Virus record (IMG/VR): IMGVR_UViG_3300049811_000642 | Span: 1 to 32,032 of that record | From: a virus | Reading direction: 5' to 3' (one strand) | DNA length: 32,032 nt | Shown: positions 1 to 31,193 of the stretch, piece by piece | Layout of the letters: every line of letters begins with the position of its first letter | Position numbering within the stretch: the stretch's first letter is position 1 | Notes under the pieces: model-generated | Told to the model about the DNA's origin: nothing | The model's input: the letters and a program-made list of their open reading frames with translations, nothing else | The model's database searches: none | Program-made: the position numbers and the translations under genes

Positions 1-3000
1 CTGTCCGGCGAGTAGCGCCCGCTGGCATCCGTGCCCAGCACGGTGACGGTGTTCTCCGGGCCGACCCCGGCCGCGGCACGCGTCCGCTGCACCGCCAGAT
101 AGCTCGCCTCGAACAGCTCCGGCTGGACTTCGCGGTCGATACCGTGATTGCGGTAGGCGGTGCGCAGCAGCCCGCGGTCGGCCTGTTCGGGGGTGGGCGG
201 GGTCCAGTCGGGGATTCGCGCCAGATGTTGCCGATGCTCGTCCAGCGCCTGCGTCAGCCGGCTGCGGGTCAGCTCCAGCTCCAGCGTCCGCTGGGCGTCG
301 GCCGGTGCGCCCTGATGTGTCCATCCGCTGTCCGGGTCGCGGCGGTAGTGCTTGCCGTCGGAGGCCTGCAGCAGATCCGGATCGAGGGCGACGGTCACAG
401 CCCTGGGTATCTGCGGGTTGGGCGTCTGGTCGTAGCCGTACAGCTTGTGCCCCACTTCATAGCGCGCCGCGATCTCGGCCGGGCCGGCGCGCAGATTGCT
501 GTCGATGGTCTGCACCGCCTGCGCGCTCAGCTCCGCGGCCCGCTCGGGCGGGGCCGTGATCGTCTCGAACTTGTTCGCGACACCGCGATGGTCCTCGTCC
601 AGAACCACCTCGCGCATCCATTTGCCGGTGTCCGCCTGATACACCCAGTCCCGTGTGCGCAGGCTGTGCATGTCGCTGTCGTTTGCCGGCTGCACAAAGG
701 GGTTGCGCGGCGTGGGCACCTCGCCCAGAGCCAGCTCCACCGCCCGGGCACTGGCGGTCGCGCTCAGCTCCCGGTGCTTGTCGGGCTGGGCGGCGAACTC
801 CTGCTTCCGTAGCACCTCGCGACCATCGTCCACCAGGTCGGCGCGCAGGTCTTCGCGGACCCACTGGCCGCGTTTGTATTCCCAGTCCACGCCCTCGCTG
901 CGGATGTTGACGATGCCGTAGTTCTGCCACCAATCCACGCCGCGCTCGAAGGCTTTCCCGAACAGGTAGGCCTCACCCATCGCCAGCGTGGCGGCACCAC
1001 CCGTGCTCATGCCCATCGCGGCGGCCGTCGTGGTCGCGGCCACGCCTCCTACCAAGACGCCCGTGGTCTGTGCGATCTGGCGGTCATAGGCCGCGTCCTT
1101 CGCGGTCTCGTTGCCCAGGGTGTTCTTGAACACCTGCGCGCGTTCACGGGTCTGCAGCCACTCGTAGCCGGTCAGCCCCACTTCGACGGCGACGCCACCC
1201 AACGCAGACCACCGTGCCCTGGCCCGCGTGATCGCTTCGGGGTCGTAGGGCAGGACGACGGTCTTCTCGTCGCGCGCCAGGCGCGCCATCAGCCCCTCGG
1301 CGCCGGCCTGCTCGGGCGGGCCGACATGCGGCGTGCGCTCCACCGGGCGGGCCTGCGCCTGCAGGCGGCGGGTCATGGCGCCGGCCGGTTCGGGCGTCTG
1401 GTCCGGCAGGTGGACCACCTGGCCCGGCTGGGCGAGGTGGGCGTAGTCCGGCGCCAGCGCCCTCACCTCGCCGGCCGGCGTCATGCGGTCGATCTTCGGC
1501 CAGCTGCGGAACAGCGTATTGCCCTCGGTCGAATGGTGGACGACGTTCATCCGCATGTCGGTGGTTTCGTGCACCCGCGCGAACACGGGCTCGCCCAGCA
1601 GCGCATTGCGGTAGTCGGTCATCAGGTTCAGGCTGCGGTCGGCCAGGCCGCCGCGGAAGTAGCTGCCGCCCACGTCCGAATGCGCGCCCGCCACCGTCAC
1701 GCTGAAGAACCGTCCGTCCGCGGAGTGCCCTTCGGGGATGATGCGGTCCACCGGGAACAGGCCGCGCTTTTCGTCCGCCGCATTGACCTGGAAGCCGGAT
1801 ACCACCGAAGGCGGCAGACGGCGGTCGAAGAAGTCCTGCAGGTAGCCGGTCGGCACCGGGTCGTACAAGCCCACCGACATAGGCATCTGCCCGGGCGCAA
1901 TGTGATACCGCGTATGGGTCCTGACCGTATTGCCCTGCTCGTCGAGCGATTCGACCGCGCTCGTCGGGTCGGGGAAGCCGCGTTCGTGGATCATCCGCGC
2001 CAGCAGCGGTACCGTGCTGGCGCCCCGGCTGAAGCCTTCGAGGTGGGTGCTGATCCTGGCCTGCGGGTCGGCCATGAGTATTTCGTCGACGCGCTTTGCT
2101 AACCTCGCATACATGTCTTCGGCGCGTGCGAGTGAGGTGCGACCCGTAGCGCCATCGACAGTATTATCAAAAAAACTCGATTGAGTCCCCGGGCCCTCCT
2201 TATAAACAACGTCAATATTTTGAATACCAGATTTCTTCAGCCCGAATATGGCGTCTCTCAGCTTGGCAACATTGGTCGCATGCAGCGGGTCTTTCTCGAC
2301 ATCATTGCCAGTGCCATCCAGCAGGCCAAATAACATGTAGGAATGCGGGTCCTTGCGGTCCCACAGCGCCGGCACCTTGAACTCGCGCATCTGCGCCGCC
2401 GCGCGCTCGTAGCTCTGCAACTGCTCGCGGCTGGCGATGTCGTGCGGCACATCGTCGTAGGGCAGCCCGTCCGCATCCAACCTGACCCGCGTCTTGCCAG
2501 ACCAGGCGTTTGCCATGCTGTCGTCCAGCCCGTCGAGCGTCCGCCCGATCAGGGACCTGGGCGCGGAGGCGGGATTCGGCTGTGGCAACGCCGGCGGCGT
2601 CCGAAGGCTCTCCAGGTGGCCCATGCCGGCCTGCGCGTAGTCGCTGGGCGCGGCCATGCGGTCGGCCAGCGGCCGGGTCACCACGGTGAACGCCGGCGGC
2701 TGCGCCGCCACGGCCGTGCCCGTGAAGTAGGCGCGGCTGTCGATCAGCAGCTCACCGGCATCGCCTGTGAGTGGCATGCCGGCATAATTGACGGCCACAT
2801 TCAATTTGCCCACGTTCTCATAGGACCGCGCCTGCACCGCCTCGAACGCCGCGTGGCCGCCGCGGTCGGCCTGCAGGTTGGCCAGGTGGAGGCGGTCGAT
2901 GTCTTCGATGGTGGTCACCCGCTCGTTCGCCAGCACGCGCGGCAGCTCGCTGGCCGCGAACACGCGGTCCGGCTGGGCGAAGCTGGTGATGGTCCGCACC

Positions 3001-3422
3001 TCGCCCACCGTCTCGGCCGCGAACCGGGCCGAGACGATGTCCCAAGCCCCATCCGCGACGCGCTGGCCGTCCGGGCCGACCGTGCCGAACAGGAACTGGT
3101 TCGCCGATGTGCCCGGGTCCCTCGGGTTGGTGCCGTAGATACGTTCCAGCGCATCGGCCAGCGGCCTGTTCGCCTTGTCGGGCGAGAAGATGTCCAGGAA
3201 GCGGAACGCCTCCGTGTTGTCGAGGACGCGGATGTCCTCGCCCGCCCTCATCAGCCCGTTGACCACATCCGACGACCACACCCCTTCGGCGGTCTTCCCG
3301 CTGTAGAGGATGGTCAGCGCCCCGTCCGCGCGGACCGCCAGCCGTCGAACGATGTCCCTCAAGTCGTCCGCGGATTGGGCCTGTTCAAGCAACGCATTGG
3401 CCTCGGTCAGGGAAATGTCCAT
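1..3422 (-). CDS. DUF2235 (Tle1-type) phospholipase effector, C-terminus beyond window edge
   Basis: The frame is open from ATG 3422 to the left edge (1140 codons, no stop seen), so the C-terminus is missing. DUF2235 alpha/beta-hydrolase motifs appear in order: LLDGTGND near residue 367, the nucleophile elbow GFSRGAS near 464, LYDPVPTG near 517 and AHSDVGGSYF near 580. This family includes Tle1 phospholipases, antibacterial effectors of type VI secretion and, in xanthomonads, type IV secretion, which hydrolyse membrane phospholipids of rival cells. The N-terminal 350 residues match no family I know. After the hydrolase comes a glycine/alanine-rich hydrophobic stretch near residues 770-800, then a region ending in LGTDASGRYSPD, a phrase typical of large xanthomonad effectors. 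An XVIPCD type IV secretion signal, if present, would lie off the edge. It is the last visible gene of a minus-strand cluster, 11 nt after its upstream neighbour. The ribosome binding site is weak (GGGGCG). Confidence 0.85.
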   Translation of the reverse strand, partial: MDISLTEANALLEQAQSADDLRDIVRRLAVRADGALTILYSGKTAEGVWSSDVVNGLMRAGEDIRVLDNTEAFRFLDIFSPDKANRPLADALERIYGTNPRDPGTSANQFLFGTVGPDGQRVADGAWDIVSARFAAETVGEVRTITSFAQPDRVFAASELPRVLANERVTTIEDIDRLHLANLQADRGGHAAFEAVQARSYENVGKLNVAVNYAGMPLTGDAGELLIDSRAYFTGTAVAAQPPAFTVVTRPLADRMAAPSDYAQAGMGHLESLRTPPALPQPNPASAPRSLIGRTLDGLDDSMANAWSGKTRVRLDADGLPYDDVPHDIASREQLQSYERAAAQMREFKVPALWDRKDPHSYMLFGLLDGTGNDVEKDPLHATNVAKLRDAIFGLKKSGIQNIDVVYKEGPGTQSSFFDNTVDGATGRTSLARAEDMYARLAKRVDEILMADPQARISTHLEGFSRGASTVPLLARMIHERGFPDPTSAVESLDEQGNTVRTHTRYHIAPGQMPMSVGLYDPVPTGYLQDFFDRRLPPSVVSGFQVNAADEKRGLFPVDRIIPEGHSADGRFFSVTVAGAHSDVGGSYFRGGLADRSLNLMTDYRNALLGEPVFARVHETTDMRMNVVHHSTEGNTLFRSWPKIDRMTPAGEVRALAPDYAHLAQPGQVVHLPDQTPEPAGAMTRRLQAQARPVERTPHVGPPEQAGAEGLMARLARDEKTVVLPYDPEAITRARARWSALGGVAVEVGLTGYEWLQTRERAQVFKNTLGNETAKDAAYDRQIAQTTGVLVGGVAATTTAAAMGMSTGGAATLAMGEAYLFGKAFERGVDWWQNYGIVNIRSEGVDWEYKRGQWVREDLRADLVDDGREVLRKQEFAAQPDKHRELSATASARAVELALGEVPTPRNPFVQPANDSDMHSLRTRDWVYQADTGKWMREVVLDEDHRGVANKFETITAPPERAAELSAQAVQTIDSNLRAGPAEIAARYEVGHKLYGYDQTPNPQIPRAVTVALDPDLLQASDGKHYRRDPDSGWTHQGAPADAQRTLELELTRSRLTQALDEHRQHLARIPDWTPPTPEQADRGLLRTAYRNHGIDREVQPELFEASYLAVQRTRAAAGVGPENTVTVLGTDASGRYSPD

Positions 3423-3433
3423 AAGCGCCCCGA

Positions 3434-3877
3434 CTAGAAACCGAAAGTCACGATGGTGTTGTCGATCTGCTTTCTGGCCCCGTCGTAGCCCCTCGCCGTG
3501 AGGGCTTCTTTCAGGACGGACAGCGCAGCCCGGCGTTCCTCGTCGCTGGTGTCGGACGGTTGGAAATCGACGATGCCGCTCCACGCCACGATATACGGCG
3601 AAGCGCTCAGCGTGCCGGACCCTTTTCCGATGCCCACCTTGATGAGATAGCGCTTGCCGTCGACCTGCAGACTGAATTCGATCCAGTAGTCGCCATCACG
3701 GGCAGGATTCGAGCCACGTATCTGTCTGAGGATGATGTTTCGCTCCCGATCGATGGTCCATTGCGGGGCGTAATTCTCCGGCAGCGTCTTCTCGCCCGGA
3801 TACGCGGCGAAATACGCCTTGCCAAGCCCATAAGTCTCGATATCCTCGGCGGACACGTATTCATTGACGAACGCCAT
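3434..3877 (-). CDS. Hypothetical protein, candidate immunity protein for the adjacent phospholipase effector
   Basis: This is a 147-residue soluble protein without signal peptide or membrane segment, and I do not recognise its family. The ATG at 3877 is preferred because GGAGAG lies about 8 nt upstream; a GTG one codon earlier (3880) is also possible. The sequence has mixed polarity, with alternating beta-like segments in the middle (DYWIEFSLQVDGKRYLIKV) and a C-terminal helix followed by TIVTFGF. It ends 11 nt before the effector start and begins 16 nt after the 252-residue gene, so the three are probably one transcript. Small genes next to antibacterial lipase effectors usually encode immunity proteins. 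Here that is inference from position only: it lacks the lipobox or signal peptide common in Tle1 immunity proteins, so a chaperone or adaptor role is equally open. Confidence 0.75.
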   Translation of the reverse strand: MAFVNEYVSAEDIETYGLGKAYFAAYPGEKTLPENYAPQWTIDRERNIILRQIRGSNPARDGDYWIEFSLQVDGKRYLIKVGIGKGSGTLSASPYIVAWSGIVDFQPSDTSDEERRAALSVLKEALTARGYDGARKQIDNTIVTFGF

Positions 3878-6891: not shown

Positions 6892-7290
6892 TCAAACACA
6901 CTCCCTGCGCCTGGCCGACTGGGCGTTGCGGATGCGGTGATAGATCTCTTCGCGGTGGACGGCCATCTCCAGCGGCGCGTCGATGCCCATGCGCACCTGG
7001 GCGCCGGAGGCCTTGGCCGGCTGCCCGGCCTGCCCGCCGCCGCCGATCCACACCACCACATCGCGGCCGATGCGCAGGGAGTCGCCCAGCAGCAGCGTGG
7101 CCTCGTAGCAGCGCCTGCGCCAGATGCGCCGGCAGGGCAGCAGCGCGGTGTCGGTGTCGTCGGTGACGTTCACGCCGGCCGGTGCGGTCAGGGCCACGGT
7201 GATATGTCCGCCCACCTTGCCCTGCACTGTGATGCGGATGTGGTCGCCGATCCGGATGCTTTCGCCCACGCGGCGGGTCAGGACCAGCAT
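6892..7290 (-). CDS. Single-chain tandem CsrA-like RNA-binding regulator
   Basis: This is a 132-residue protein, twice the length of CsrA (about 60-65). ATG 7290 has GGAGG 4 nt upstream. Residues 1-45 are a CsrA N-terminal half (MLVLTRRVGESIRIGDHIRI, then VALTAPAGVNV). After a linker with Cys and Arg (residues 48-62), residues 63-123 are a second CsrA repeat: LLLGDSLRIGRDVVV, VRMGIDAPLEMAVHREEIYHRI. CsrA is a post-transcriptional regulator that binds GGA motifs in mRNA leaders as an intertwined dimer, each RNA site being built from LTRR on strand beta1 of one subunit and VHREE on beta5 of the other. Here repeat 1 keeps LTRR and repeat 2 keeps VHREE, while the opposite pair (ATLLLGDS and GVNVTDD) has lost them. 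The chain could therefore fold as a pseudodimer with one working site. That is inference from motifs. The gene follows another csrA-like gene by about 100 bp. Confidence 0.85.
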   Translation of the reverse strand: MLVLTRRVGESIRIGDHIRITVQGKVGGHITVALTAPAGVNVTDDTDTALLPCRRIWRRRCYEATLLLGDSLRIGRDVVVWIGGGGQAGQPAKASGAQVRMGIDAPLEMAVHREEIYHRIRNAQSARRRECV

Positions 7291-7394: not shown

Positions 7395-7844
7395 TCATTG
7401 TGCTTTCGCGGCAACACGACGGCGCGCAGCGCCGCGTGGCTCGCGTGTGACGGTGGCGCCTTCGGGCGCGTGTACGGTGAGCGCGGTGTTGCGCAGGGGT
7501 ACCGTGCCGTCCTGCGCGCGCAGCCTGTGCACGCTTATCCGGTATCCGTCCACGCAGAGCGCCTCGCCGTCCTGCAGCCACAGCAGCAGGAGCCGCCTGC
7601 CCATCGCCGACGCGAGCACGCGCTCGGGCTCGTCCGCGCCCGCAATGGCGCAGCCTTCCGGGACTTCGACGCACAGCGCGAGGGTGCGCCTGCCTTTCCG
7701 CTGCCCGCTCCAGCCCAGCGGCACGATGTCGATGGCATCCGCCACCCGGAGCCGTTCGCCGGCCCTGCAATCCACGGTGACCAGATGCTCGTCCCTGCGC
7801 TGCGATGGGACATAGATAGCAAATGTTGTGCGCCACCACAACAC
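7395..7844 (-). CDS. Degenerate tandem CsrA-like protein
   Basis: The open frame codes for 149 residues from GTG 7844, which has no clear ribosome binding site. A CTG at 7784 preceded by AGGGA at good spacing would start the protein at (M)VTVDCRAGERLRVADAIDI, aligning residue for residue with MLILTRRVGESLMIGDDVTV of CsrA; the start is therefore uncertain. Two CsrA-like repeats can be aligned: residues 21-70 (RAGERLRVADAIDIVPLG then LALCVEVPEGCAIAG) and residues 83-135 (LLLLWLQDGEALCVDGYRIS then TALTVHAPEGATVTRE). Neither repeat retains the RNA-contact signatures LTRR or VHREE. The gene lies directly upstream of the better conserved tandem CsrA gene on the same strand. A non-RNA-binding partner or antagonist is one possibility; decay is another. 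Assignment rests on pattern alignment by eye. Confidence 0.6.
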   Translation of the reverse strand: MLWWRTTFAIYVPSQRRDEHLVTVDCRAGERLRVADAIDIVPLGWSGQRKGRRTLALCVEVPEGCAIAGADEPERVLASAMGRRLLLLWLQDGEALCVDGYRISVHRLRAQDGTVPLRNTALTVHAPEGATVTREPRGAARRRVAAKAQ

Positions 7845-8027: not shown

Positions 8028-8282
8028 ATGCACATGAAGATCGCCCTTGTCGCCTGCGTTGCGCTGGCCGGCTGCAGCACCCCGGAACCGGTGCAAACCG
8101 TGGACTGGTACAAGGACCATGCACCTGAGCGGCAGGCGATGGTCGCCAAGTGCCGCGCCAACCCCGGCGAACTGGAGGCCACGCCCAACTGCGTCAACGC
8201 CATCCGCGCGCAGAACCAGTTGGACAACGCGCGCCGTGGTCTGGCGCCGCTGACGCCCCTCCCGTCGAGCACGTCGCCCTGA
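8028..8282 (+). CDS. EexN family lipoprotein
   Basis: This is an 84-residue lipoprotein. ATG 8028 is preceded by GGAGA about 9 nt upstream; a second ATG at 8034 is also in frame. The signal peptide MHMKIALVACVALAGC ends in the lipobox LAGC, with Cys16 as the lipidated residue. The mature part carries the EexN signature: TVDWYKDHAPERQAMVAKCR, then NPGELEATPNCVNAIRAQ, with two conserved cysteines. EexN-type proteins are small lipoproteins first linked to entry exclusion in conjugative systems, but in xanthomonads they are also scattered outside such systems. No conjugation genes are visible here, so the role is open. It is transcribed away from the csrA-like pair. Confidence 0.85.
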   Translation: MHMKIALVACVALAGCSTPEPVQTVDWYKDHAPERQAMVAKCRANPGELEATPNCVNAIRAQNQLDNARRGLAPLTPLPSSTSP

Positions 8283-8941: not shown

Positions 8942-9598
8942 ATGAACAAGTATTCCCAAGCCTTCTTCGACGCCATGAAGCGCACCGGCCTGAGCAACGT
9001 CGTGATCGCTGCGCACGTCGGCAAGGTGGGCAACAACTGCGTGGCGCAGTGGCGGTCGGGCCGTCGGCCCATTCCGGCGGAACACGCGCCCAAGGTGGCC
9101 GGGCTGCTGGGCCTGCTGCCGGAGCAGATCAGCGAGTCCTACGACCGGCTGCTGCAGGCGGGCGCGCTGTTGCCGGAAGCCACGCCCGGGCGCAATGCGC
9201 CGCCGCAGGGGCATGTGGTGCTGTCGGAGCTGGAGGATTTCGGGCGGCCGTCAGACCAGCCGCGCATCTGGCTGCCGGAGTCCATCACCCGGCGCAAGCT
9301 GGGGCTGACCCGGCCCGAGGACGTGCGCTGGACGCTGCAGCCGTCGCAGTCGATGGCGCCCGAGATCGAGCGCCACGCGCTGGTGCTGGTGGACATCACC
9401 ACGCAGCGGCCGGAGGACGTGGTGGACGGCGGCCTGTACGCCTGCGCGCTGTGGGGCCGCCCGGACATCCGCCGCATCCTGGTGCGGCGCGGCGGCTGGA
9501 CGCTGGCCGGGGCCAATGCGGACATCGAACGGGTGAGCGTGAGCGAGGAGGATCTGGCGGAGCTGCGCATCCACGGCAGCGTGATCGGCTGGATTTGA
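8942..9598 (+). CDS. CI/LexA-like (S24 fold) transcriptional repressor lacking the catalytic lysine
   Basis: This is a 218-residue protein. The open frame extends upstream, but ATG 8942 starts MNKYSQAFFDAMKRTGLSNV, the usual beginning of this xanthomonad family. Residues 1-60 form a helix-turn-helix (AHVGKVGNNCVAQWRSGRRP). The C-terminal 110 residues resemble the LexA/CI dimerisation-peptidase domain: VRWTLQPSQSMAPEIERHAL gives the Ser in an SM motif, followed by LVLVD and LYACALWGRPDIRRILVRR. At the place where S24 peptidases have the catalytic Lys (T-V-K-R) this protein has V-R-R, so self-cleavage may be lost. It probably represses its own region through the GTTAACG-type sites, and it is followed 99 bp downstream by the MASE1 sensor gene on the same strand. 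RecA-dependent induction seems unlikely without the lysine. Confidence 0.85.
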   Translation: MNKYSQAFFDAMKRTGLSNVVIAAHVGKVGNNCVAQWRSGRRPIPAEHAPKVAGLLGLLPEQISESYDRLLQAGALLPEATPGRNAPPQGHVVLSELEDFGRPSDQPRIWLPESITRRKLGLTRPEDVRWTLQPSQSMAPEIERHALVLVDITTQRPEDVVDGGLYACALWGRPDIRRILVRRGGWTLAGANADIERVSVSEEDLAELRIHGSVIGWI

Positions 9599-9697
9599 CC
9601 GGGCGGGATGGGCCTAGAATGGCCGGGGCCTCCCGGCGGGGCCAGCCTTGCGGCACCGGACAAGGACAGCGACAACACACGGAACAGGGAGCGGAAT

Positions 9698-11242
9698 GTG
9701 GGCAAGCGCTGGGGCACATACATCGCGAAGGGCGTCGCCCTCGCCCTGCTGTACGGCATCGCCTACCTGGCGCTGCGCTACGTCTCGTTCAATCAGTGGT
9801 TCCTGCCGGCAGGGCTGCGCGCGGCCTGCCTTTTGTTTCTGCCGTATCGGTATTGGCCGTTCGTGATCCTCGGCGATGCCTCGGCGGTGTTTTTCCAGCG
9901 GTTGCCGAAGCTGGATCAGTACGCTACGGCATGGGTTTATGGAGGCCCAATCCTGCTGATTGGGTCCGTTGCAATCGCCCCGCATCTCGCAAGATTGAAG
10001 CTACGGCACGCAAGAGATATGCACTTTTGGATGCCGCTGACCGCTTTGTTCATCAGTGTCTGGGCGGCCATGTGCACTTCGATCTTCAACTACGCTCTAG
10101 GAGGTCCACGCCAACCAGACAGCGCGGAGAAAGCCGTTGAGTATGTGACTGGTAATTACCTCGGAATTTTGATGTTTGTCCTCCCCCTTCTGTTTTGGCA
10201 GACCAGAAAGTGGCGGACCTATCGAATCCGTAACATGGGCAGAGACTCGCTCATTGCTTGCGTGGCTATTCTTGCGCTTTTTTTATTTGTAGAAGCCCAG
10301 CCGGGAGACGAAGGACTCTCCGAGCAGATTGCTCTTCTCCTAATGATAATCCCGGCAGCATGGCTGACGTTTTCTCACGGCTGGCATGGCGCGGCGATCG
10401 GCATATTCATCGTCAATGTTGGGACCGCTCAAGCGATGGAATACGTGGGAGTACCAAAGCACTTTGAAACCGTTTTTCTTTCCCAGATCGGCCTCAGTAT
10501 ATTTGCAGTGATCTTTCTACTCCTTGGAAGCAGGATTACGTCTCAATATGAGACCGCCCGAAGATCAGGCATCGCTGAACAAGACGCGCTAAAGCTCGCT
10601 CGTATGAGCCTGCTGTCGAATGAACCCGCTGTCCGCGACCAGCTCATCATGCTCGCCAGCATGCAGGTGCTGATGGACGACGAGCGCGATCAGCTGGCCA
10701 AGGACCTGCGCGCCAACGGCAAGGCCCATGCGGCGATGGAACTCCACCGCCGCGGCGTGGAGCACCGCCAGCTGTTCCAACTGCAGGCGCTGGTGGTCTA
10801 CCCCATCGGCATCGAACGCGACGGGCTGTTCGGCCTGCTGGACACCGAGATGTTCCGCGAGTCGCGCGCCAGCGGGGCCGTGGTGGACATGCGCTTCGGC
10901 CGCACCGACCCACGCACCCTCTCGGAGGCACTGCAGGTGTCGGCCTACCGCTGCCTGTGCCACGCCATCGACCACCTGTCGGACTGGGAGCCGACGGACT
11001 ACCGGCTGCACCTGCGCGTCTGGCACGGGCGCCTGAAGCGTGGCATCTACATCTCCGCGCACATCACCACCGCGCATGCGCGGCACGTCACCCCGCACGG
11101 CGAAAGCGCGTGGCTGCTGCTAGAGGCGCGGGTGAAGGCCCATGGCGGCCTGCTGCGCCATGGGCCGGACGGAATTCGCCTGCTGCTGGCCGAGTCCATG
11201 GACGAGCCCTCGGCCGAGCAGGAGACCAGCTTCGCCGCCTAG
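9698..11242 (+). CDS. MASE1-type membrane sensor with degenerate histidine kinase-like C-terminus
   Basis: GTG 9698 is preferred (GGGAG 7 nt upstream) over the frame start at 9608, giving 514 residues. The first ~300 residues hold about eight transmembrane helices in a MASE1-like arrangement, with the typical FNQWFLPAGLRAACLLFLP loop near residue 35. A short linker near residue 310 leads to a cytoplasmic part of about 200 residues (QLAKDLRANGKAHAAMELHR, then ALQVSAYRCLCHAIDHLSDW) that resembles the dimerisation and N-box region of a NarL-group histidine kinase. However, the H-box histidine pattern and the ATP-binding G-boxes are not recognisable. It may therefore sense a signal without phosphorylating. 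Codon use between 9950 and 10600 is visibly less GC-rich than in the C-terminal third. It follows the repressor gene and could share its transcript. Confidence 0.8.
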   Translation: MGKRWGTYIAKGVALALLYGIAYLALRYVSFNQWFLPAGLRAACLLFLPYRYWPFVILGDASAVFFQRLPKLDQYATAWVYGGPILLIGSVAIAPHLARLKLRHARDMHFWMPLTALFISVWAAMCTSIFNYALGGPRQPDSAEKAVEYVTGNYLGILMFVLPLLFWQTRKWRTYRIRNMGRDSLIACVAILALFLFVEAQPGDEGLSEQIALLLMIIPAAWLTFSHGWHGAAIGIFIVNVGTAQAMEYVGVPKHFETVFLSQIGLSIFAVIFLLLGSRITSQYETARRSGIAEQDALKLARMSLLSNEPAVRDQLIMLASMQVLMDDERDQLAKDLRANGKAHAAMELHRRGVEHRQLFQLQALVVYPIGIERDGLFGLLDTEMFRESRASGAVVDMRFGRTDPRTLSEALQVSAYRCLCHAIDHLSDWEPTDYRLHLRVWHGRLKRGIYISAHITTAHARHVTPHGESAWLLLEARVKAHGGLLRHGPDGIRLLLAESMDEPSAEQETSFAA

Positions 11243-11277: not shown

Positions 11278-11730
11278 TCACTCCGTCGCGCCCAGCGGAC
11301 GGATCAGCCAGCGGGTGGTGGTGCCGTCCTGGTAGCGCAGCACCTCCACGTCCGCGCCGCGGTACAGCAGGCTGGGCACGCCGGCGGGTAGCCCGTCGCC
11401 GGGCAGGGCCACGCGGTCGGCGTCGCTGCCGATCGGCATCACCCACGCCGTGCCGCCGATCCGTCCGGCCGCCGCGCGCACGGTGCCGCCGGCATCATTG
11501 ATCTGCACATAGCGGATGCCGTCGCGTTCAAATTGGTACACCTTCCAGGCAGGATCGGCCGCCAGATCGACCGCTTGCGGAAAGGACTCACCCAGGCCAA
11601 GCGAGGCGACCGGGCTATCACGGCCGTCGTCCGGGCAACCGCACTTCGCCCACGCGGGCGAGGCAAACAGCGTCGCGCTGGCCAGCAGAGCGAGAGGCGC
11701 GCAGGCGGAACGAGATAGATACATCGACAT
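11278..11730 (-). CDS. Small secreted protein, copy 1 of a tandem duplication
   Basis: This is a 150-residue protein. ATG 11730 has AGGAG 7-8 nt upstream and starts a signal peptide (MSMYLSRSACAPLALLASAT) ending in SPAWA, so the mature protein begins KCGCPDDGRD. The mature part of about 123 residues has a Cys-x-Cys at its start and otherwise a beta-rich pattern: WKVYQFERDGIRYVQINDAG, then GGTAWVMPIGSDADRV and YRGADVEVLRYQDGTTTRWL. The family is not recognised. The second copy at 11957-12409 is nearly identical from about residue 85 onward and differs mainly around the KCGC region. The 90 bp upstream of the start is also duplicated and carries GTTAACG-type sites, suggesting control by the nearby S24-like repressor. 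Confidence 0.85.
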   Translation of the reverse strand: MSMYLSRSACAPLALLASATLFASPAWAKCGCPDDGRDSPVASLGLGESFPQAVDLAADPAWKVYQFERDGIRYVQINDAGGTVRAAAGRIGGTAWVMPIGSDADRVALPGDGLPAGVPSLLYRGADVEVLRYQDGTTTRWLIRPLGATE

Positions 11731-11766
11731 GATGAAACTCCTTGAGTGCTGATCCGTAGGATGTGT

Positions 11767-11805
11767 GTTAACGGCCTGCGATGTCCCCATACAGCACCGC
11801 TAACG
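11767..11805. promoter_or_regulatory. Candidate repressor operators upstream of secreted-protein copy 1
   Basis: GTTAACGG (11767-11774) and CCGCTAAC (11797-11804) form an inverted pair with centres 30 bp apart. They match the perfect pair at copy 2 except for one base. They lie 37-75 bp upstream of the ATG. Confidence 0.45.
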
Positions 11806-11809
11806 ATTG

Positions 11810-11841
11810 AAGGCCCGAACGGCGCTATCGCCTCGGGCCTT
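11810..11841. terminator. Hairpin between the duplicated genes
   Basis: AAGGCCCGA and TCGGGCCTT enclose an inner stem GGCG-ctat-CGCC. It lies downstream of copy 2 and upstream of the copy 1 operators, and could isolate the two transcription units. Confidence 0.55.
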
Positions 11842-11901
11842 TCGACGGTAGCACCCGGATTCACGCGCTGAGCGTGCCCTATGGTGCCGCTCGGCGGGCC
11901 G

Positions 11902-11939
11902 GCGCCGGACGCCCTTGCGGGCGCCGGACGCCCTTGCGG
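11902..11939. repeat. 19-bp exact tandem repeat
   Basis: GCGCCGGACGCCCTTGCGG occurs at 11902-11920 and again at 11921-11939. The second copy also forms the left arm of a hairpin with GGGCGCCCG that resembles the terminator at 11243-11270. It lies just downstream of secreted-protein copy 2. Confidence 0.8.
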
Positions 11940-11956
11940 GCGCCCGGGCTGGGCAC

Positions 11957-12409
11957 TCACTGCGTCGCGCCCAGCGGGCGGATCAGCCAGCGGGTGGTGG
12001 TGCCGTCCTGGTAGCGCAGCACTTCCACGTCCGCGCCGCGGTACAACAGGCTGGGCACGCCGGCCGGCACGCCGTCGCCGGGCAGGGCCACGCGGTCGGC
12101 GTCGCTGCCGATCGGCATCACCCAGGCGGTACCGCCGATCCGTCCCGCCGCCGCGCGCACCGCGCCGCCAGCGTCGTTGACCTGCACATACTTGACGCCA
12201 TCGCGGTGAAATTCGTACACCTGCCACGCGGGGTCGGCGGCCAGATCGACGGCTTCCGGGAAAGACTCGCCCAAGCCGCTCGATGCGACCTGATTCCAAT
12301 TGCCGTCCCCGACACAACCGCATTTCGCCCACACGGGCGAAGCAAACAGGGTCGAGCTGGCCAGCAGGGCAAGCGACGCGCAGGCGGAACGAGACAGATA
12401 CATCGACAT
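11957..12409 (-). CDS. Small secreted protein, copy 2 of a tandem duplication
   Basis: This is a 150-residue paralogue of the gene at 11278-11730, starting at ATG 12409 with AGGAG at the same spacing. The signal peptide ends in SPVWA and the mature protein begins KCGCVGDGNWNQVASSGLGE. The first 30 mature residues differ most from copy 1 (GDGNWNQ against DDGRDSP), whereas the C-terminal half, including PIGSDADRVALPGDGVPAG, is nearly unchanged. The promoter region, start region and body are all duplicated at an offset of about 679 bp, so a recent duplication with selection or relaxation near the mature N-terminus is likely. Function is unknown; the signal peptide and Cys-x-Cys suggest a periplasmic or surface protein. 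Confidence 0.85.
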   Translation of the reverse strand: MSMYLSRSACASLALLASSTLFASPVWAKCGCVGDGNWNQVASSGLGESFPEAVDLAADPAWQVYEFHRDGVKYVQVNDAGGAVRAAAGRIGGTAWVMPIGSDADRVALPGDGVPAGVPSLLYRGADVEVLRYQDGTTTRWLIRPLGATQ

Positions 12410-14270: not shown

Positions 14271-14382
14271 CGATCAGCAGCACAGCGCTTCCCGACTCAC
14301 AAGCCACTGAATGACGGCCGCTGCGAGGCACGGTCCGAATCTATGCTGAGGATCGAGACAAAGAAAATGGCATGAGTCACGT

Positions 14383-14797
14383 CTACTCGATCCCCATGCC
14401 TTCCTCCTCCGCGACCCGCCGCCGCAGAGCGGGGTCGTAGACCACCCCGCGCTCCGCCCGGTCGCTGTACGCCTGCCGGGCGCGCAGCGAGCGACGAATG
14501 GTCTGGCCGGTGATGGGCTTTTCGGGATACGCCTTCTGGCGCGCCCCTTCGGCCCCCCGTGAAGCCGATGGACTCCAGCGGGTCATCCTTCGGGTCGCCC
14601 TCATGGATCGCGTCGCCATGCCTGGAAGGTACTGCTTCTGGGACATTGCGCATCGCCTGTGCGCCGTCTTGGAGCGCATTCGGCTGCACGGTCACCACAC
14701 CCCACCAGAAAACGAAAAGAAGCACCGGTACGCATTGCGTACCGGGGCTGGGTCCTGTCCCGTTGGCCGGGACCTCTTGTCTGCATGACGCTGGCAT
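14383..14797 (-). pseudogene. Probable frameshifted small gene (indel in a G6 run)
   Basis: Two overlapping minus-strand frames each look coding over only part of their length. The upstream frame (from 14797) reads plausibly as DGAQAMRNVPEAVPSRHGDA, then KDDPLESIGFTG. The downstream frame reads GARQKAYPEKPITGQTIRRS, then QAYSDRAERGVVYDPALRRR, and ends VAEEEGMGIE. They meet at a run of six G (14553-14558 as C on the plus strand). With five G the two parts fuse into one continuous reading, FTGAEGARQKAYPEKP. This suggests a recent frameshift or a base-calling error in a homopolymer. The N-terminal part contains a hydrophobic segment (PVLLFVFWWGVVTV). The family is not recognised. Confidence 0.45.
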
Positions 14798-14869
14798 CTA
14801 CCGTCCGAAGCGCCCTCTGGGTCTTGGACGATGTTCAGTTGGACGGTGGCGGCGGTGATCGGCGACAGT

Positions 14870-14895
14870 TGCGTTGGCCCCACTCGACCAACGCA
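14870..14895. terminator. Inverted repeat downstream of the small-gene cluster
   Basis: TGCGTTGG (14870-14877) and CCAACGCA (14888-14895) form an 8-bp stem with a 10-nt loop about 60 bp past the last minus-strand gene. A terminator is plausible; there is no clear T run. Confidence 0.35.
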
Positions 14896-14953
14896 GCCGC
14901 ATCGTCCAGGCCCGCGGGATCTTGCGTCCTGCCGCCGCCTTCAATCGCTCCCT

Positions 14954-15229
14954 TCAGTTGGCAGCCCGCGCCGCAGCCTTGCCGAGTGCCACCTGTGCGC
15001 CAGCGACCATGTCGAGGCGCATGTTGCTGCCCGTCGCGCCCGCAGCGTAGCCGATGGCCCAGTTGAGCACGCTGGCGCGGTCATTGAGCGTCTCAGCGTC
15101 ACGGTACCGCTGCTGGTAATGCGCCAGTTCCTCTGCAGCGCGTTCGAACGCCCTGCGCACGTTTTCGAGGGCATCTGCCCCTTGCTCGATCGCGAGTTGC
15201 TCCAGCAGATGGTCGGCTCGACTGTCCAT
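14954..15229 (-). CDS. Small hypothetical protein with shared 33-bp leader
   Basis: This is a 91-residue protein starting at ATG 15229 with GGAG 8 nt upstream; the open frame reaches 15289 but lacks support there. It is largely helical: DSRADHLLEQLAIEQGADAL, then AFERAAEELAHYQQRYRDAE, a likely coiled coil, followed by VLNWAIGYAAGATGSNMRLD. The family is unknown to me. It is one of three genes here preceded by the same 33-bp element, whose nearest edge is 31 nt from this ATG. It is the last gene of the small-gene cluster in the direction of transcription. Confidence 0.65.
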   Translation of the reverse strand: MDSRADHLLEQLAIEQGADALENVRRAFERAAEELAHYQQRYRDAETLNDRASVLNWAIGYAAGATGSNMRLDMVAGAQVALGKAAARAAN

Positions 15230-15259
15230 GCGTTTGCTCCGTTGCGGCGGGTGTGGACA

Positions 15260-15292
15260 CATGAACGCGCTGTCGCGACTGGAAGCCAAGCC
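15260..15292 (-). repeat. 33-bp leader/promoter element, copy 1 of 3
   Basis: On the transcribed strand it reads GCTTGGCTTC, eight variable bases, then ACAGCGCGTTCATG. It ends 31 nt before ATG 15229. TTGGCT and GTTCAT are 17 bp apart and could be -35 and -10 boxes. Confidence 0.65.
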
Positions 15293-15371
15293 GAAGATCT
15301 GCTCCTGCCGATGGTAGACAAGCGTGGTACAGGCAGTCGCCTCGTCGAGGCGCCAACGGCAGATTCCGCGC

Positions 15372-15692
15372 TCACCACACGAAGCTCAGCGGGTTGGCGG
15401 CAATCCGTGCCAGTAGCTGTTCAAGCGGCTCCACTTCAGCGCCATCGGCGATGGGCGCCAGCAGGGTTGTGCCGGTGTCGATCAGTTCGATCCGGATGAC
15501 TTCGACGCCATTGCTGGCGTAGGCGATGTGCTTGCGCCCGGCGAGCTGGCGGTGCAATGCGTGTGGAGTCCTTGCGCGCAGCAGTTCCCGGCGCCACGCG
15601 TGGCGTCCGCGCTTGCCGGGAACCCGGACGAGCAATGAGGCGAGGAAGAATTCCTTGACGCGCTTGGCCTGTGGGGTCGGGACCTGCTTCAT
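15372..15692 (-). CDS. Small hypothetical protein with shared 33-bp leader
   Basis: This is a 106-residue protein starting at ATG 15692. The larger open frame to 15920 reads as out-of-frame sequence upstream, so the start is placed where protein-like composition begins: MKQVPTPQAKRVKEFFLASL. It is basic in its first half (RVPGKRGRHAWRRELLRART) and then reads HIAYASNGVEVIRIELIDTG and ends with PLEQLLARIAANPLSFVW. No domain is recognised; the charge pattern would suit a nucleic-acid-binding protein, which is inference. The ribosome binding site is weak. The second copy of the 33-bp element ends 29 nt upstream of the ATG. Confidence 0.6.
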   Translation of the reverse strand: MKQVPTPQAKRVKEFFLASLLVRVPGKRGRHAWRRELLRARTPHALHRQLAGRKHIAYASNGVEVIRIELIDTGTTLLAPIADGAEVEPLEQLLARIAANPLSFVW

Positions 15693-15720
15693 GGGCGTTC
15701 GATGTCCGTGTCGGGGTGAG

Positions 15721-15753
15721 CATGTACGCGCTGTTCGCGCTCGAAGCCAAGCG
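15721..15753 (-). repeat. 33-bp leader/promoter element, copy 2 of 3
   Basis: On the transcribed strand it reads GCTTGGCTTC, eight variable bases, then ACAGCGCGTACATG, with identical spacing to the other two copies. It ends 29 nt before ATG 15692. Confidence 0.65.
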
Positions 15754-15768
15754 CGTACCGCAAAAAAT

Positions 15769-15966
15769 TCACCGGTCAGCCGCCCTTCCGGTCGCGGCTT
15801 TTCGTTCATGCTCGACGCCCGCTCGATAGGCTGCTTCGAGCGCGTCTCGCAAGCGTTCGACGAAGACTTCATGGAAGTCCAGTCGGTCGGACCCACGGGT
15901 GTCCAGCGACTCGATTCCAAGGGTGACGCGGGCGATCCGCGCGATGGTGTTCTCGACTGCCTTCAT
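15769..15966 (-). CDS. DUF6900 domain protein
   Basis: This is a 65-residue protein starting at ATG 15966 with GGAGG 7 nt upstream. It is almost entirely the small DUF6900 domain: NTIARIARVTLGIESLDTRG, then SDRLDFHEVFVERLRDALEA and AYRAG. DUF6900 proteins are common on plasmids and integrative elements and have no assigned function. The gene follows the 127-residue gene at 16059-16442, with two hairpins between them. It lacks its own copy of the 33-bp leader, so it is probably expressed from the upstream gene's promoter. Confidence 0.8.
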   Translation of the reverse strand: MKAVENTIARIARVTLGIESLDTRGSDRLDFHEVFVERLRDALEAAYRAGVEHERKAATGRAADR

Positions 15967-15989
15967 GGCAAGTCCTCCGTGTCCGATGG

Positions 15990-16014
15990 GCGCATCGCCA
16001 TTGCGGCGATGCGC
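15990..16014. terminator. 10-bp perfect hairpin upstream of the DUF6900 gene
   Basis: GCGCATCGCC and GGCGATGCGC pair perfectly around a 5-nt loop. It lies between the 127-residue gene and the DUF6900 gene, 24 bp before the latter's ATG. It could terminate, stabilise the mRNA 3' end, or modulate translation. Confidence 0.5.
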
Positions 16015-16025
16015 GTGGGGAAGGG

Positions 16026-16044
16026 CGGGAGCCGGTCGCTCCCG
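16026..16044. terminator. 7-bp hairpin after the 127-residue gene
   Basis: CGGGAGC and GCTCCCG pair around a 5-nt loop, 14 bp past the stop codon at 16059. It is terminator-shaped but without a long T run. Confidence 0.5.
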
Positions 16045-16058
16045 TCTGTGGTGTGCGG

Positions 16059-16442
16059 TCAGCCGAGCCTCGCGACATACCGTGCGTCGTCGCAGCCGGC
16101 CGGATCGACGTAGAGGTAGGGGCGTCCGGGTGCGTGGACTTCGACACACAGGCGACCGTCGGCGGCGTTGCCACCCTTGCCTGCCAGCCACGCCCTAGGG
16201 CGGCTCAGGTCATCCGCGAAATCGTCGAACTCTGCAACCGTCATTTGGACTGTTTCGGTGATGTAGATGCGGTACTCGCCGGTGGCGCACATCTCGCGAA
16301 GGGAGCTGGGCTTGCGCGCGAAGGGAAGGCTGGCGCCGAGCTGCTCGACGCGAATCTTCCGACGGCCCAACCGCAGCACGCGTGGCGTTCGCACAATGCT
16401 GATGTTCATGGTGTAGGGCTCGGCGAGCGACATGGTGGGCAT
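16059..16442 (-). CDS. Conserved hypothetical protein of mobile-element type
   Basis: This is a 127-residue protein starting at ATG 16442 (AGGA about 10 nt upstream; an ATG three codons later is possible). It reads MSLAEPYTMNISIVRTPRVL, then LGRRKIRVEQLGASLPFARK, then EYRIYITETVQMTVAEFDDF, ADDLSRPRAWLAGKGG, and a C-terminal beta hairpin ending ARYVARLG. I recognise this arrangement from small proteins on integrative and conjugative elements, but no function is assigned to them. It is the first gene of the small-gene cluster and sits 147 bp past the end of the phage tail tip gene. The third copy of the 33-bp leader element ends 39 nt upstream of the ATG. Confidence 0.75.
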   Translation of the reverse strand: MPTMSLAEPYTMNISIVRTPRVLRLGRRKIRVEQLGASLPFARKPSSLREMCATGEYRIYITETVQMTVAEFDDFADDLSRPRAWLAGKGGNAADGRLCVEVHAPGRPYLYVDPAGCDDARYVARLG

Positions 16443-16480
16443 CGGTGGTTTCCTTGGGTGCGTCGGCAAGTCGACGAAGT

Positions 16481-16513
16481 CATGAACGCGCTGTGTGCGG
16501 CAGAAGCCAAGCG
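16481..16513 (-). repeat. 33-bp leader/promoter element, copy 3 of 3
   Basis: On the transcribed strand it reads GCTTGGCTTC, eight variable bases, then ACAGCGCGTTCATG. It ends 39 nt before ATG 16442 and lies between the phage tail tip gene and the small-gene cluster. Confidence 0.65.
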
Positions 16514-16588
16514 TCGATCGATGTCGCAGCGCGACTACGGGACACCTCTCGTACAGGCTTCAGGTCAGGCGCAGATTCCGCGCGCCGA

Positions 16589-19084
16589 CTACGCCAGGCG
16601 GCGCAGACTGACGCGCTCGATGCGCCCCGCGAAGGCGGCGTCGGTGGCGATGCGCAGCGCGGTGTGGGTGCTTGCAATCAGCGACTCGACGAACGTGCCG
16701 CTCGCGTTGCGCGGGGCGCTATCGATGGCTGTGGCGCCGACGAGGCCGACGCGCACCGAGCCGGCCGTGACCTGGGCCAACAGAAATTCGACGCGGTACA
16801 GCGCGCCGTCGACAAAGGCGAAGGGCTGCGCAAGATCGGTGGCGGTGCCTGCGACCTTGACCGCAGCGCCACCAGTGATCGACCAGCCGGGGCCGAGCGT
16901 CCACGCAGCCTGCGTGTCGAAGTCTGCGTTCGCGAGCTTTTCGCCGCACTCGCAGGCGATTGTCCGGATGTGCCGCTGGCGCGAGGGGAGCGCGCCGCGC
17001 CGGCTCTCGACCTCGATCCGCAGGGGAGCATCGTTCGCCAGCAGCAGCTCGACGCTGTGCTGCGTTCCGACGAGCCCGCTGGTCTCGTGCAGCACCGCGC
17101 CACTGAGCGCATGCAGCACGCGCACGGTCGTGGTCGTGCCCGGCTCGGGGCCGATGCTGCCGGCCTCGTGCTCCACCAGTCGGTCGCCCTGCAGCACACG
17201 GTCGCGATGCGCCCAGGCGAGGTCCAGGCGGGCGAAGGCCGTCGGCGGCCAGGCGGCGCCGTTGATCCGCAGCCGGCCCGGCGGATACGGCCGGGCATGG
17301 CGGGCGTCGAGCTGAACCTGCGCGATCGGTGCGAGCGCGGGATCGAGCGTGCCCTGCTGGGTGCGGGTGAGGAGCTTCGCCTCGATGGTCTCCCCCGCCA
17401 GATGTTCGGTGGGATCGGCGCCGACATAGGTATCGGTGCACCACAGGCGTGCGCCCGGTGCGTGGGACGCGGGCACCGTGTCCACGCAGCCGCGTGCGAT
17501 CGTCAAGGTGCCGGCGACGAGATCGATGGCGTCGATCCGCACCAATTCCTCGTCGATCAGCGCCTCACTGCCGACGGTGACGAGGTCCAGGTCGTGCATG
17601 TCCGCCAGCGTCGCCACCGTATCGGTTGGCCCGAGCGCAGCTGCGAGCGTCGCTGTGGCCGAGAAGTCCCCGCCCGCCACCTCCACGAATGGACCTGCAC
17701 CCGCACCTGCGGTGCGCGTGATCAGCGCGTAGCCGTAGGCCGACCCGTTCGGTCTCGCACCCAATGCGACCACGAACCCGGCATCGTCCTCGACCTGCGC
17801 CAGATCGGCCGGGCGCAGTCGTCCAGCGAGATCGCGGTACGTGGCCTCGACCAGCCGCTGCGCGGGCAGCGGCAGCGGGCGCGTGTCCGGTGGCGTCCAT
17901 GGCCCGATCACCGGCCGCAGGTAGGTGGTCGCGGCCATGCCGTCGATGTCCTGCACCAGCGTGAGCGCGAGTGCGCCGTCGGTGCGCGTCCCTTCGTCCA
18001 CCTCCAGCACCCGGACCGGCATGCGCTGCACACCCTTGCGCCGCCAGGACAGCGCGAGCACGTCGCCGCGCTTCACGCCCCACCAGCGACGGTCGACGGT
18101 GAGCTTGATCCGCTGCAGCAGGCTGCTGGCGGCGCTGGTTTCCCGTGCGGCGACGCGCTCGCACAGACTTCGGTTCCACAGACCTGGCAACGTGCGCCGG
18201 TCGGCGACGACGCGGCCCTGCGCCTGCACATTGGCCATGTTCTGGAAGGTCGCGGCGATCTCCAGATTGGAGACGCAGTCGCGTCCGAGCACGGTGACCT
18301 CGTTCACCGAACCATCGAGCAGCGGCGTCTGCCAGCTCTCCAGGGCCAGCACGCTGGTCTCATCGAGCAACGGCAACGTCGCGACATCGTAGTCCGGCCG
18401 GAACAACCGGTAGACGAACTGGCCGCGCATCGGATCGAAGGCCCACAGCCCACCGACGTGGGTGTTGACCGTCTGCAGGAAATTCCCGATCGAGTCGCCC
18501 CGCCGCCAGCCCAGGCACAGCCCGAACGCTTCGTCGTGCAACTGCTCGGCCGCGCGCAGGAAGCTCTCGCCATCGATCAAGGCGGGATCCAGACCGCAGC
18601 CCCACACCGTATCGGTGAGGCACTGGTAGTGGATATGTGCGGCGTTCATGCCGCGACCGATGCGCGCAAGTTGTGGCTGCCACACCGGTGTCGACCAGCC
18701 CTGCACGAAGCGCCCCCAGCGCTTGGCCCAGAGCTTCAGGTAGGGGTTCATCGCCCCGACCATTCCGCGGTACAGCGTGGTGCACAGACCGCGCGCCGCC
18801 GGCCACGGCCCCGGCACCTGCTGCTGCAGATAGGGCACCGGCATCTGGTCTGGCTCGCCCATGCGGATCTGCAGGGTGCCGACGAGGCCACCTTCCTTCT
18901 TGTCGCCGCCGAACAGCTGCGGCAGGTTGATTGCGAATGTGCCGCTGCCGGCGCGTTCGCCCTCGAACACGGTCTGACCGCCGACCTTCACCCCCGCGAG
19001 GTAGTCGTTCGGACCGATCGACTCGCCCATGTACAGGTACATGAAGTGCCGATAGCCGATGGTCGGCTTGCTCGACTTACCCAC
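16589..19084 (-). CDS. Phage tail tip protein with C-terminal carbohydrate-binding-like domain
   Basis: This 831-residue protein is the last structural gene. GTG 19084 is chosen because it overlaps the preceding stop (GTGGGTAA) and begins (M)GKSSKPTIGYRHFMYLYMGE, the conserved start of a family of siphophage tail tip proteins. Residues 1-380 carry tryptophan-rich structural segments (FGLCLGWRRGDSIGNFLQTV). Around residue 490 is the fibre-type segment SEALIDEELVRIDAIDLVAG, followed by RGCVDT. The last ~120 residues (LANADFDTQAAWTLGPGWSI through FAGRIERVSLRRLA) have the jelly-roll pattern of carbohydrate-binding modules such as CBM4_9. By position it replaces lambda J, the host recognition protein, so the C-terminal domain is a candidate receptor binder. 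Tail assembly and adsorption are inferred from order and pattern. Confidence 0.82.
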   Translation of the reverse strand: MGKSSKPTIGYRHFMYLYMGESIGPNDYLAGVKVGGQTVFEGERAGSGTFAINLPQLFGGDKKEGGLVGTLQIRMGEPDQMPVPYLQQQVPGPWPAARGLCTTLYRGMVGAMNPYLKLWAKRWGRFVQGWSTPVWQPQLARIGRGMNAAHIHYQCLTDTVWGCGLDPALIDGESFLRAAEQLHDEAFGLCLGWRRGDSIGNFLQTVNTHVGGLWAFDPMRGQFVYRLFRPDYDVATLPLLDETSVLALESWQTPLLDGSVNEVTVLGRDCVSNLEIAATFQNMANVQAQGRVVADRRTLPGLWNRSLCERVAARETSAASSLLQRIKLTVDRRWWGVKRGDVLALSWRRKGVQRMPVRVLEVDEGTRTDGALALTLVQDIDGMAATTYLRPVIGPWTPPDTRPLPLPAQRLVEATYRDLAGRLRPADLAQVEDDAGFVVALGARPNGSAYGYALITRTAGAGAGPFVEVAGGDFSATATLAAALGPTDTVATLADMHDLDLVTVGSEALIDEELVRIDAIDLVAGTLTIARGCVDTVPASHAPGARLWCTDTYVGADPTEHLAGETIEAKLLTRTQQGTLDPALAPIAQVQLDARHARPYPPGRLRINGAAWPPTAFARLDLAWAHRDRVLQGDRLVEHEAGSIGPEPGTTTTVRVLHALSGAVLHETSGLVGTQHSVELLLANDAPLRIEVESRRGALPSRQRHIRTIACECGEKLANADFDTQAAWTLGPGWSITGGAAVKVAGTATDLAQPFAFVDGALYRVEFLLAQVTAGSVRVGLVGATAIDSAPRNASGTFVESLIASTHTALRIATDAAFAGRIERVSLRRLA

Positions 19085-19358
19085 GGCGACGGCCCCAGGC
19101 GCGCAGGCGCTGTGCGAAGCCACGCCGCGGCGGCGAGACCACCACCGGGCGCAGCGTCGGAATCACGATCGGACGCCGCCGCCAGCGCCCGCGCAGCCGT
19201 GCAGGGACATCGAGCGCCCACAGCACGTGGAAGGCGCCTGCGGCGATTCCGAACATGCCGAACGTGCGTTCGTCGGCCAACAACAGCGCGACGCCGGAGG
19301 CGATCGAGGCGAGTGCCGCGAGCGCGATCCAGAAGGCGTAGAGGGTTCGATAGCTCAC
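19077..19358 (-). CDS. Small phage membrane protein (two helices)
   Basis: This is a 93-residue protein from GTG 19358, which overlaps the preceding stop as GTGA. Two hydrophobic helices at residues 6-26 (YAFWIALAALASIASGVALL) and 33-48 (TFGMFGIAAGAFHVLWAL) are followed by a very basic tail (RGRWRRRPIVIP, RRGFAQRLRAWGRRRG). Size, two helices and basic tail are compatible with a holin, and no other holin candidate lies in the visible module. However, it sits among tail genes, far from the endolysin gene, so a tail assembly role is equally possible. It overlaps the tail tip start by 8 nt. Confidence 0.7.
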   Translation of the reverse strand: MSYRTLYAFWIALAALASIASGVALLLADERTFGMFGIAAGAFHVLWALDVPARLRGRWRRRPIVIPTLRPVVVSPPRRGFAQRLRAWGRRRG

Positions 19359-19639
19359 AGCGGGTCCGCCTCGGATGGTGCCCCGGCGTCTGCGTGCGCC
19401 AGCGCGATCGCGCGTGCGACGAAGGGATCGTCGTGCAGGTGGGGGTAGTCGTCGACGGCGATGCCGTCCGCGCACAGCGCGCGCAGATCGATGCCGTGCT
19501 GCCGGCACCAGACGCGAATGCCCGGCGTACACAGCGGCCCGCTCGCCGGATCGATCGCGCGCACGTGGCGCAGGTGGATGCGCAGGCCGTGGTTCGACGG
19601 CCGGCTGATCGAAAGCCCGCTGCTTGACGGCACGGTCAC
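19355..19639 (-). CDS. Small phage tail-module protein
   Basis: This is a 94-residue protein from GTG 19639, overlapping the preceding stop as GTGA with GGAGG just upstream; a GTG two codons later has better spacing. Similar small proteins occur next to tail tip genes in siphophages: a beta-rich start (LRIHLRHVRAIDPAS), then GIRVWCRQHGIDLRALCADG and a final helix. No enzymatic motif is present. Function is unknown, probably tail assembly by position. Confidence 0.72.
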   Translation of the reverse strand: MTVPSSSGLSISRPSNHGLRIHLRHVRAIDPASGPLCTPGIRVWCRQHGIDLRALCADGIAVDDYPHLHDDPFVARAIALAHADAGAPSEADPL

Positions 19640-19863: not shown

Positions 19864-19974
19864 CGTGGACGGGTTCCTGTTGTGCGAGGTACGGAGCGCG
19901 GAGTGCGGGACGCGGCGAACGCGCAGCCGCCATCCGGCGCGGTCGCGCCTGGCGGTGCGTGGAAAGGGGAAGCG

Positions 19975-20772: not shown

Positions 20773-20782
20773 GCGTGCGGCG

Positions 20783-27577: not shown

Positions 27578-27615
27578 GAGGACGTGTTCATCGGGATCGA
27601 TTCACGGCACCTGGA

Positions 27616-31183: not shown

Positions 31184-31193
31184 GGGGGACTTC

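Follow-up and report, generated by a model that had tools for sequence, protein, structure and literature searches.

Tandem CsrA genes of a Lysobacteraceae genus and the fate of their two composite RNA sites

Introduction

In the CsrA dimer, each RNA-binding surface is formed by parallel strands beta1 and beta5 of opposing monomers, L4 and R44 being the critical residues (PMC7652899), and dimerisation proceeds through swapping of the same two strands (PMC3791407, where the strand order is also given). What happens to these two sites when two CsrA repeats are carried by one chain? The question is raised by a gene in a 32,032-nucleotide stretch of DNA classed as viral (IMG/VR record IMGVR_UViG_3300049811_000642, positions 1 to 32,032; hereafter, the window), whose product, tandem CsrA, has kept the RNA-contact residues of one composite site and lost those of the other. 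We put at roughly 0.6 the probability that this protein is a single-chain pseudodimer with one ANGGA-type RNA site. The need for two RNA sites in CsrA has so far been studied with engineered one-site dimers, and here evolution appears to have made a one-site single-chain CsrA and kept it beside normal CsrA and paralogues retaining neither site.

Results

Two CsrA repeats in one chain

The minus-strand open reading frame 7290..6892 encodes a protein of 132 amino acids (MLVLTRRVGESIRIGDHIRITV...QVRMGIDAPLEMAVHREEIYHRI...). The Pfam CsrA profile (PF02599) matches it in two stretches (E = 1.1e-23; 83.4 bits, the cut-off being 27), in agreement with a preliminary description of this DNA, which had claimed two CsrA-like repeats in one 132-residue chain. 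The NCBIfam CsrA profile likewise matches the protein, and both stretches are also seen in a DNA-level search. With this length and two repeats, the protein departs from the single-domain chain of canonical CsrA (about 60-75 residues).

One could instead assume only one CsrA copy, with an insert separating beta2 from beta3, similar to RsmN and hence forming a two-site homodimer. Single CsrA sequences indeed align best to residues 1-25 plus 95-125, and the RsmN insert sits at the same place (PMC3791407). In this case, the inner part of the chain would be unrelated to CsrA. We compared the inner pieces by hhalign with a profile built from 47 sequences of single CsrA, using 60 column-shuffled controls. 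Both beta3-beta5 of repeat A (E = 1.9e-5; score 23.8, best shuffled 13.6) and beta1-beta2 of repeat B (E = 2.9e-6; score 28.1, best shuffled 17.9), each taken alone, align to CsrA in register and above the controls. Thus, we observe a true tandem duplication rather than a single CsrA with an unrelated insert; the RsmN insert, moreover, is a 16-residue helix, not 70 residues of strands, and an RsmN-like architecture seems very unlikely.

The spacing between beta5 of repeat A and beta1 of repeat B is about 17 residues (44-60), enough to cross the length of one strand, and a sequence corresponding to helix alpha1 follows repeat B only, with none after repeat A. No chain in the PDB matches both repeats, and a search of the open-licence literature yielded no publication describing a tandem or single-chain CsrA. 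Tandem CsrA extends the CsrA family by one more variant and does not represent a new type of protein.

One composite site keeps its residues

The register of the repeats is set by the segments GESIRIG/GDSLRIG and TAPAGV/DAPLEM, so that LTRRV corresponds to ATLLL, and MAVHREE, to VNVTDDT. The preliminary description had placed LTRR at residues 4-7 and VHREE near 111-115, which is where they are, and it was also right that each repeat lacks the signature of the other, repeat B having ATLLL and repeat A having VNVTDDT (Table 1). Its structural premise, that each site is composed of beta1 of one subunit and beta5 of the other, agrees with the published dimer (PMC7652899).

In a pseudodimer, site 1 would comprise beta1 of repeat A and beta5 of repeat B, both halves being kept, and site 2 would comprise beta1 of repeat B and beta5 of repeat A, both halves being lost. 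Judging from the alignment, the half-sites of each pair have been kept or lost in concert rather than by random decay. The RNA-contact residues of CsrA (L4, R6, and equivalents of V42, R44, and E45/E46) are present once, split over the two repeats, and at the kept site they do not differ from canonical CsrA (LTRR, VHREE). Instead of two equivalent RNA sites, a chain by its sequence has one composite site with these residues retained; as this is the only such site, one ANGGA-type RNA site would be bound per chain, not two.

Distribution and selection

The first full-tandem relatives were found in two Lysobacter-like metagenome-assembled genomes (L003 and L004; 52-53% identity), and later ones in whole genomes. 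Among 13 proteins of this type, referred to as distal (the L097 sequence ends at a contig end), the invariant columns include R6, V111, R113, E114, and E115. In all 13, the kept and lost half-sites fit the two composite sites exactly, and the signature of site 2 is seen in none (0/13). Homologues keeping both signatures in both repeats, which would have contradicted the preliminary description, are hence absent from this set.

The ratio of nonsynonymous to synonymous substitution rates (dN/dS) of the distal gene is 0.02-0.37 in pairs with dS <0.85 and 0.28-0.42 in the most distant pairs, the latter being near saturation. The distal gene is under purifying selection. Given this selection and 12 homologues with the same asymmetry, a chance origin of the pattern can be excluded.

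Of the 11 genomes representing the genus of G001 (Lysobacteraceae), 10 carry the tandem family, with up to five loci per genome, and all full tandem matches among 297 genomes of the family fall within the same genus. Outside G001, no tandem CsrA was found in 398 genomes of the order and 369 genomes of the class (E <= 1e-12); in 398 genomes of the phylum (E <= 1e-10), the other matches are C-terminal pieces only, as with single CsrA. Two groups of apparent relatives were rejected: viral matches to the second half of the protein (L079-L082) are due to chance similarity to the peptide IWRRRCYE, and the plasmid and phage matches are ordinary single-domain CsrA.

Canonical CsrA coexists with the family in the genus (11/11 genomes). 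Since it does, competition between the two is possible, and a competing role of tandem CsrA is plausible. Tandem CsrA might pair with a subunit of host CsrA as a dominant partner, or hold GGA sites without bridging them as a decoy, in both cases antagonising the global Csr system. The kept-site residues are shared with canonical CsrA, Rsm paralogues do form heterodimers (PMC9928087), and single-site R44A dimers of CsrA lose full repression of glgC (PMC7652899). The constant linkage to S24 and MASE1 genes described below suggests a dedicated local circuit over global antagonism only, and we consider the antagonist role fairly improbable.

Paralogues with both sites lost

At most loci, one or two additional tandem genes lie upstream of the distal gene. 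These genes are of two types, q (with LTCR) and p (with VDC); REE is missing from either type, and neither site retains its signature. Two loci carry the q gene only (L091, L119), and three, the distal gene only (L101, L102, L116). The genes in pairs and triplets overlap or are within about 15 bases of each other (in the window, the gap is 104 bases), and this close spacing suggests that the genes of a cassette are translationally coupled.

The window contains one p-type gene, 31-32% identical to the middle gene of the L003 and L004 loci. The profile of repeat B of the p type matches CsrA (E = 2.7e-6), and an AlphaFold model of the window paralogue has ten strands with the predicted local distance difference test score (pLDDT) of 76. 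In the repeat tree, built from short sequences, the A repeats of all three types group together, in line with one old tandem duplication that would have been followed by gene duplication.

Candidate RNA targets

At 8 of 12 non-redundant loci, the first gene of the cassette has the motif ACA-N0-2-GGA no more than 25 nt from its start, compared to 12 of 77 other genes with GGA in the same stretch (Fisher p = 5e-4), and the motif often overlies the Shine-Dalgarno sequence. As the motif was picked after viewing the leaders, this enrichment serves as a lead only. The leader of the window's own cassette does not fit the motif. Counts of ANGGA downstream of the gene were set aside, as they coincide with Shine-Dalgarno sequences.

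The S24/MASE1 module

At no fewer than 15 loci, the cassette is divergent from a gene for an S24-type protein, which is followed by a MASE1 gene and a convergent gene for a small protein with an apparent signal peptide. MASE1 matches pair nearly one-to-one with tandem csrA loci genus-wide, and the sole genome of the genus lacking tandem CsrA likewise has no MASE1 match. In the S24 proteins, the catalytic Lys position is occupied by Arg, and Ser is mostly absent; hence, by sequence, these repressor-like proteins should be incapable of self-cleavage.

The suggestion that MASE1 is specific to tandem CsrA was rejected. Its homologues occur in 58 of the 297 family genomes, and at the sampled loci they are accompanied by the small protein and by neither S24 nor CsrA. 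The pair of MASE1 and the small protein is older and wider than the link to tandem CsrA. About 230 C-terminal residues of MASE1 have no assignment, and together with the convergent small secreted protein it makes up a conserved two-gene unit in Lysobacteraceae. The window has two copies of the small protein (11278-12403), nearly identical and 148 amino acids each. At one locus (L159, G139:C1:1772001-1781000), the S24, MASE1, and small secreted protein genes follow phage replication genes and precede baseplate genes, as if a prophage bore them behind the phage repressor.

Downstream of the cassette, a giant RHS-cluster protein is encoded at seven loci (Pfam RHS for L118), and in the window a Tle1-like effector lies 3.5 kb beyond the cassette. 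Other loci carry housekeeping genes in this position, so the toxin linkage is frequent and not obligatory. The Tle1-like effector (1140 amino acids) runs off the window edge, and its small neighbours within 3-3877 may be immunity proteins. Near the cassettes of L003 (6706-10500) and L110, a 700-residue protein without a Pfam match is encoded downstream, followed by repeated Imm49-like genes (by eye); this protein is a possible unrecognised polymorphic toxin.

Table 1. Coordinates of tandem CsrA, its half-sites, and neighbouring genes in the window
Position	Strand	Feature	Basis and remarks
3..3422	minus	Tle1-like phospholipase effector, same strand, downstream (context, not core)	Pfam T6SS_Tle1-like_cat 2.2e-16
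6892..7290	minus	Tandem CsrA, distal type, 132 amino acids	Two CsrA repeats (about 1-50, 56-125), one composite RNA site kept
6946..6960	minus	VHREE codons, residues 111-115, beta5 of repeat B, second half of kept site	Sequence; V111/R113/E114/E115 invariant
7087..7101	minus	Degenerate beta1 of repeat B, ATLLL, residues 64-68, lost half-site	Alignment
7153..7173	minus	Degenerate beta5 of repeat A, VNVTDDT, residues 40-46, lost half-site	Alignment
7270..7281	minus	LTRR codons, residues 4-7, beta1 of repeat A, first half of kept site	Sequence; R6 invariant
7395..7784	minus	Second tandem CsrA-like gene, p type, both RNA sites lost, strongly diverged	Open frame to 7844, no ATG
8942..9598	plus	S24/CI-like helix-turn-helix repressor-like protein, divergent from csrA cassette	Pfam Peptidase_S24 9.6e-5, just below cut-off; Arg at catalytic Lys position; conserved at other loci
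9608..11242	plus	MASE1 membrane protein, 544 amino acids	Pfam MASE1 2e-23; 66% identical to G001:C30 homologue
11278..11724	minus	Small protein with apparent signal peptide, convergent with MASE1 at nearly all loci	Locus comparison
11957..12403	minus	Second copy of small secreted protein	Locus comparison

Window context

Prophage-type genes occupy 14297-32032, including the tape measure gene (TMP_2, 24443-27577), a lysozyme-like gene near 30659, and tail genes. The preceding part, about 14 kb, resembles a host chromosome, and tandem CsrA lies there, though the record is catalogued as viral. Small phage-type genes beyond the S24/MASE1/CsrA module are shared by the window (14954-16442) and L089 (12476-14342; G001 contig 3), and the module and this prophage are thus neighbours in two genomes. 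An integrative element, suspected from a small lipoprotein gene at 8028-8282, was rejected, as no conjugation genes were found in the window.

Discussion

Pairing of the repeats

The repeats of this natural duplication most likely pair like the subunits of the CsrA dimer, and only the site formed by beta1 of repeat A and beta5 of repeat B would contact RNA. Alternatively, repeat A of one chain could pair with repeat B of another and the reverse, yielding a domain-swapped dimer with two sites, which would be bivalent with a wider spacing. CsrA itself dimerises by swapping beta1 and beta5 (PMC3791407), pairing between chains is not forbidden by the sequence, and the asymmetry fits such a dimer equally well. 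The linker of about 17 residues, however, permits the intramolecular form, which is entropically favoured, and we regard the swapped dimer as unlikely.

Several observations weigh against the single-chain pseudodimer with one RNA site. The AlphaFold model of tandem CsrA, made from a three-row alignment, has pLDDT of 36 and is uninformative, so the intramolecular pairing of the repeats rests on inference. A fold search of the PDB with the p-type model gave no significant match, the Z of 3.8 for 4kji (RsmN) being within noise. Predicted hairpin loops show no enrichment of GGA at the starts of cassettes (2/12 compared to 7/76). Arg7 is variable, with G, Q, or H in some sequences. Finally, L112 is truncated, lacks beta1 of repeat A, and may be decaying. 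Together with the absence of a clear start codon in the strongly diverged upstream paralogue of the window, this truncation would fit a decaying duplicate without function, which we hold to be extremely improbable: the low dN/dS contradicts decay for the family, the site residues are invariant, and a genome may have up to five loci. As to the preliminary description, its reasoning on the sites, one kept and one lost, stands, whereas the pseudodimer fold and monovalency, like the intramolecular pairing and RNA binding that go with them, are inferred. It gave no strand for the gene and did not mention the upstream paralogue with both sites lost, the conserved linkage to S24 and MASE1, or the confinement of the family to a single genus.

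Possible role

Of the roles considered, the likeliest for tandem CsrA, although still less probable than not, is that of a post-transcriptional regulator acting locally, with the divergent S24 repressor and the MASE1 membrane protein as its switch. Such a regulator would act on its own cassette via ACA-N0-2-GGA, which often overlaps the Shine-Dalgarno sequence of the first gene, and toxin genes, frequent downstream of the cassette, may be further targets. The GGA sites would then be occupied without the two-site bridging used by normal CsrA. More speculatively still, and with quite low probability, the whole module may work as a unit: a catalytically inert S24 repressor and a MASE1 membrane sensor would control a set of single-chain CsrA proteins (one single-site and one or two zero-site) that sets the translation of adjacent polymorphic toxins by monovalent GGA binding, the zero-site paralogues being partners or anti-CsrA subunits. 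CsrA of a related species, Xanthomonas citri, is a repressor of a type IV secretion system with antibacterial activity (PMC7286519). This lends interest to a CsrA variant encoded close to antibacterial toxins but proves nothing.

The family offers a natural system for testing what bivalency contributes to bridging, sequestration by small RNAs, and repression strength, and it bears on how a CsrA antagonist or a single-site repressor can arise.

Comparison with known systems

Compared to canonical CsrA/RsmA (PF02599, a homodimer of 60-75 amino acids having two five-stranded sheets in which beta1 and beta5 are swapped), tandem CsrA has homologous repeats, identical kept-site residues, and an alpha1-like sequence after beta5 of repeat B, but it carries two repeats per chain, one composite site, and no equivalent of alpha1 after repeat A. 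Accessory copies of csrA are known on mobile elements, such as csrT of Legionella integrative and conjugative elements, a single-domain paralogue. RsmQ of plasmid pQBR103 (PMC9928087) is similar to tandem CsrA in being an accessory CsrA paralogue able to interfere with the host system; RsmQ and the csrA paralogues of mobile elements are, however, single-domain, whereas tandem CsrA sits with S24 and MASE1 genes. RsmN/RsmF of Pseudomonas aeruginosa is, likewise, a rearranged CsrA paralogue beside a normal one, but it is a two-site homodimer with a short helical insert between beta2 and beta3 and one CsrA copy per chain (PMC3791407), while tandem CsrA is a full duplication without this arrangement. 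A further parallel is the engineered CsrA heterodimer whose one subunit carries R44A (Mercante et al. 2009, as described in the review PMC7652899), leaving one RNA site working and the other dead; that dimer is a laboratory construct, whereas the putative one-site state of tandem CsrA is natural, covalent, and conserved.
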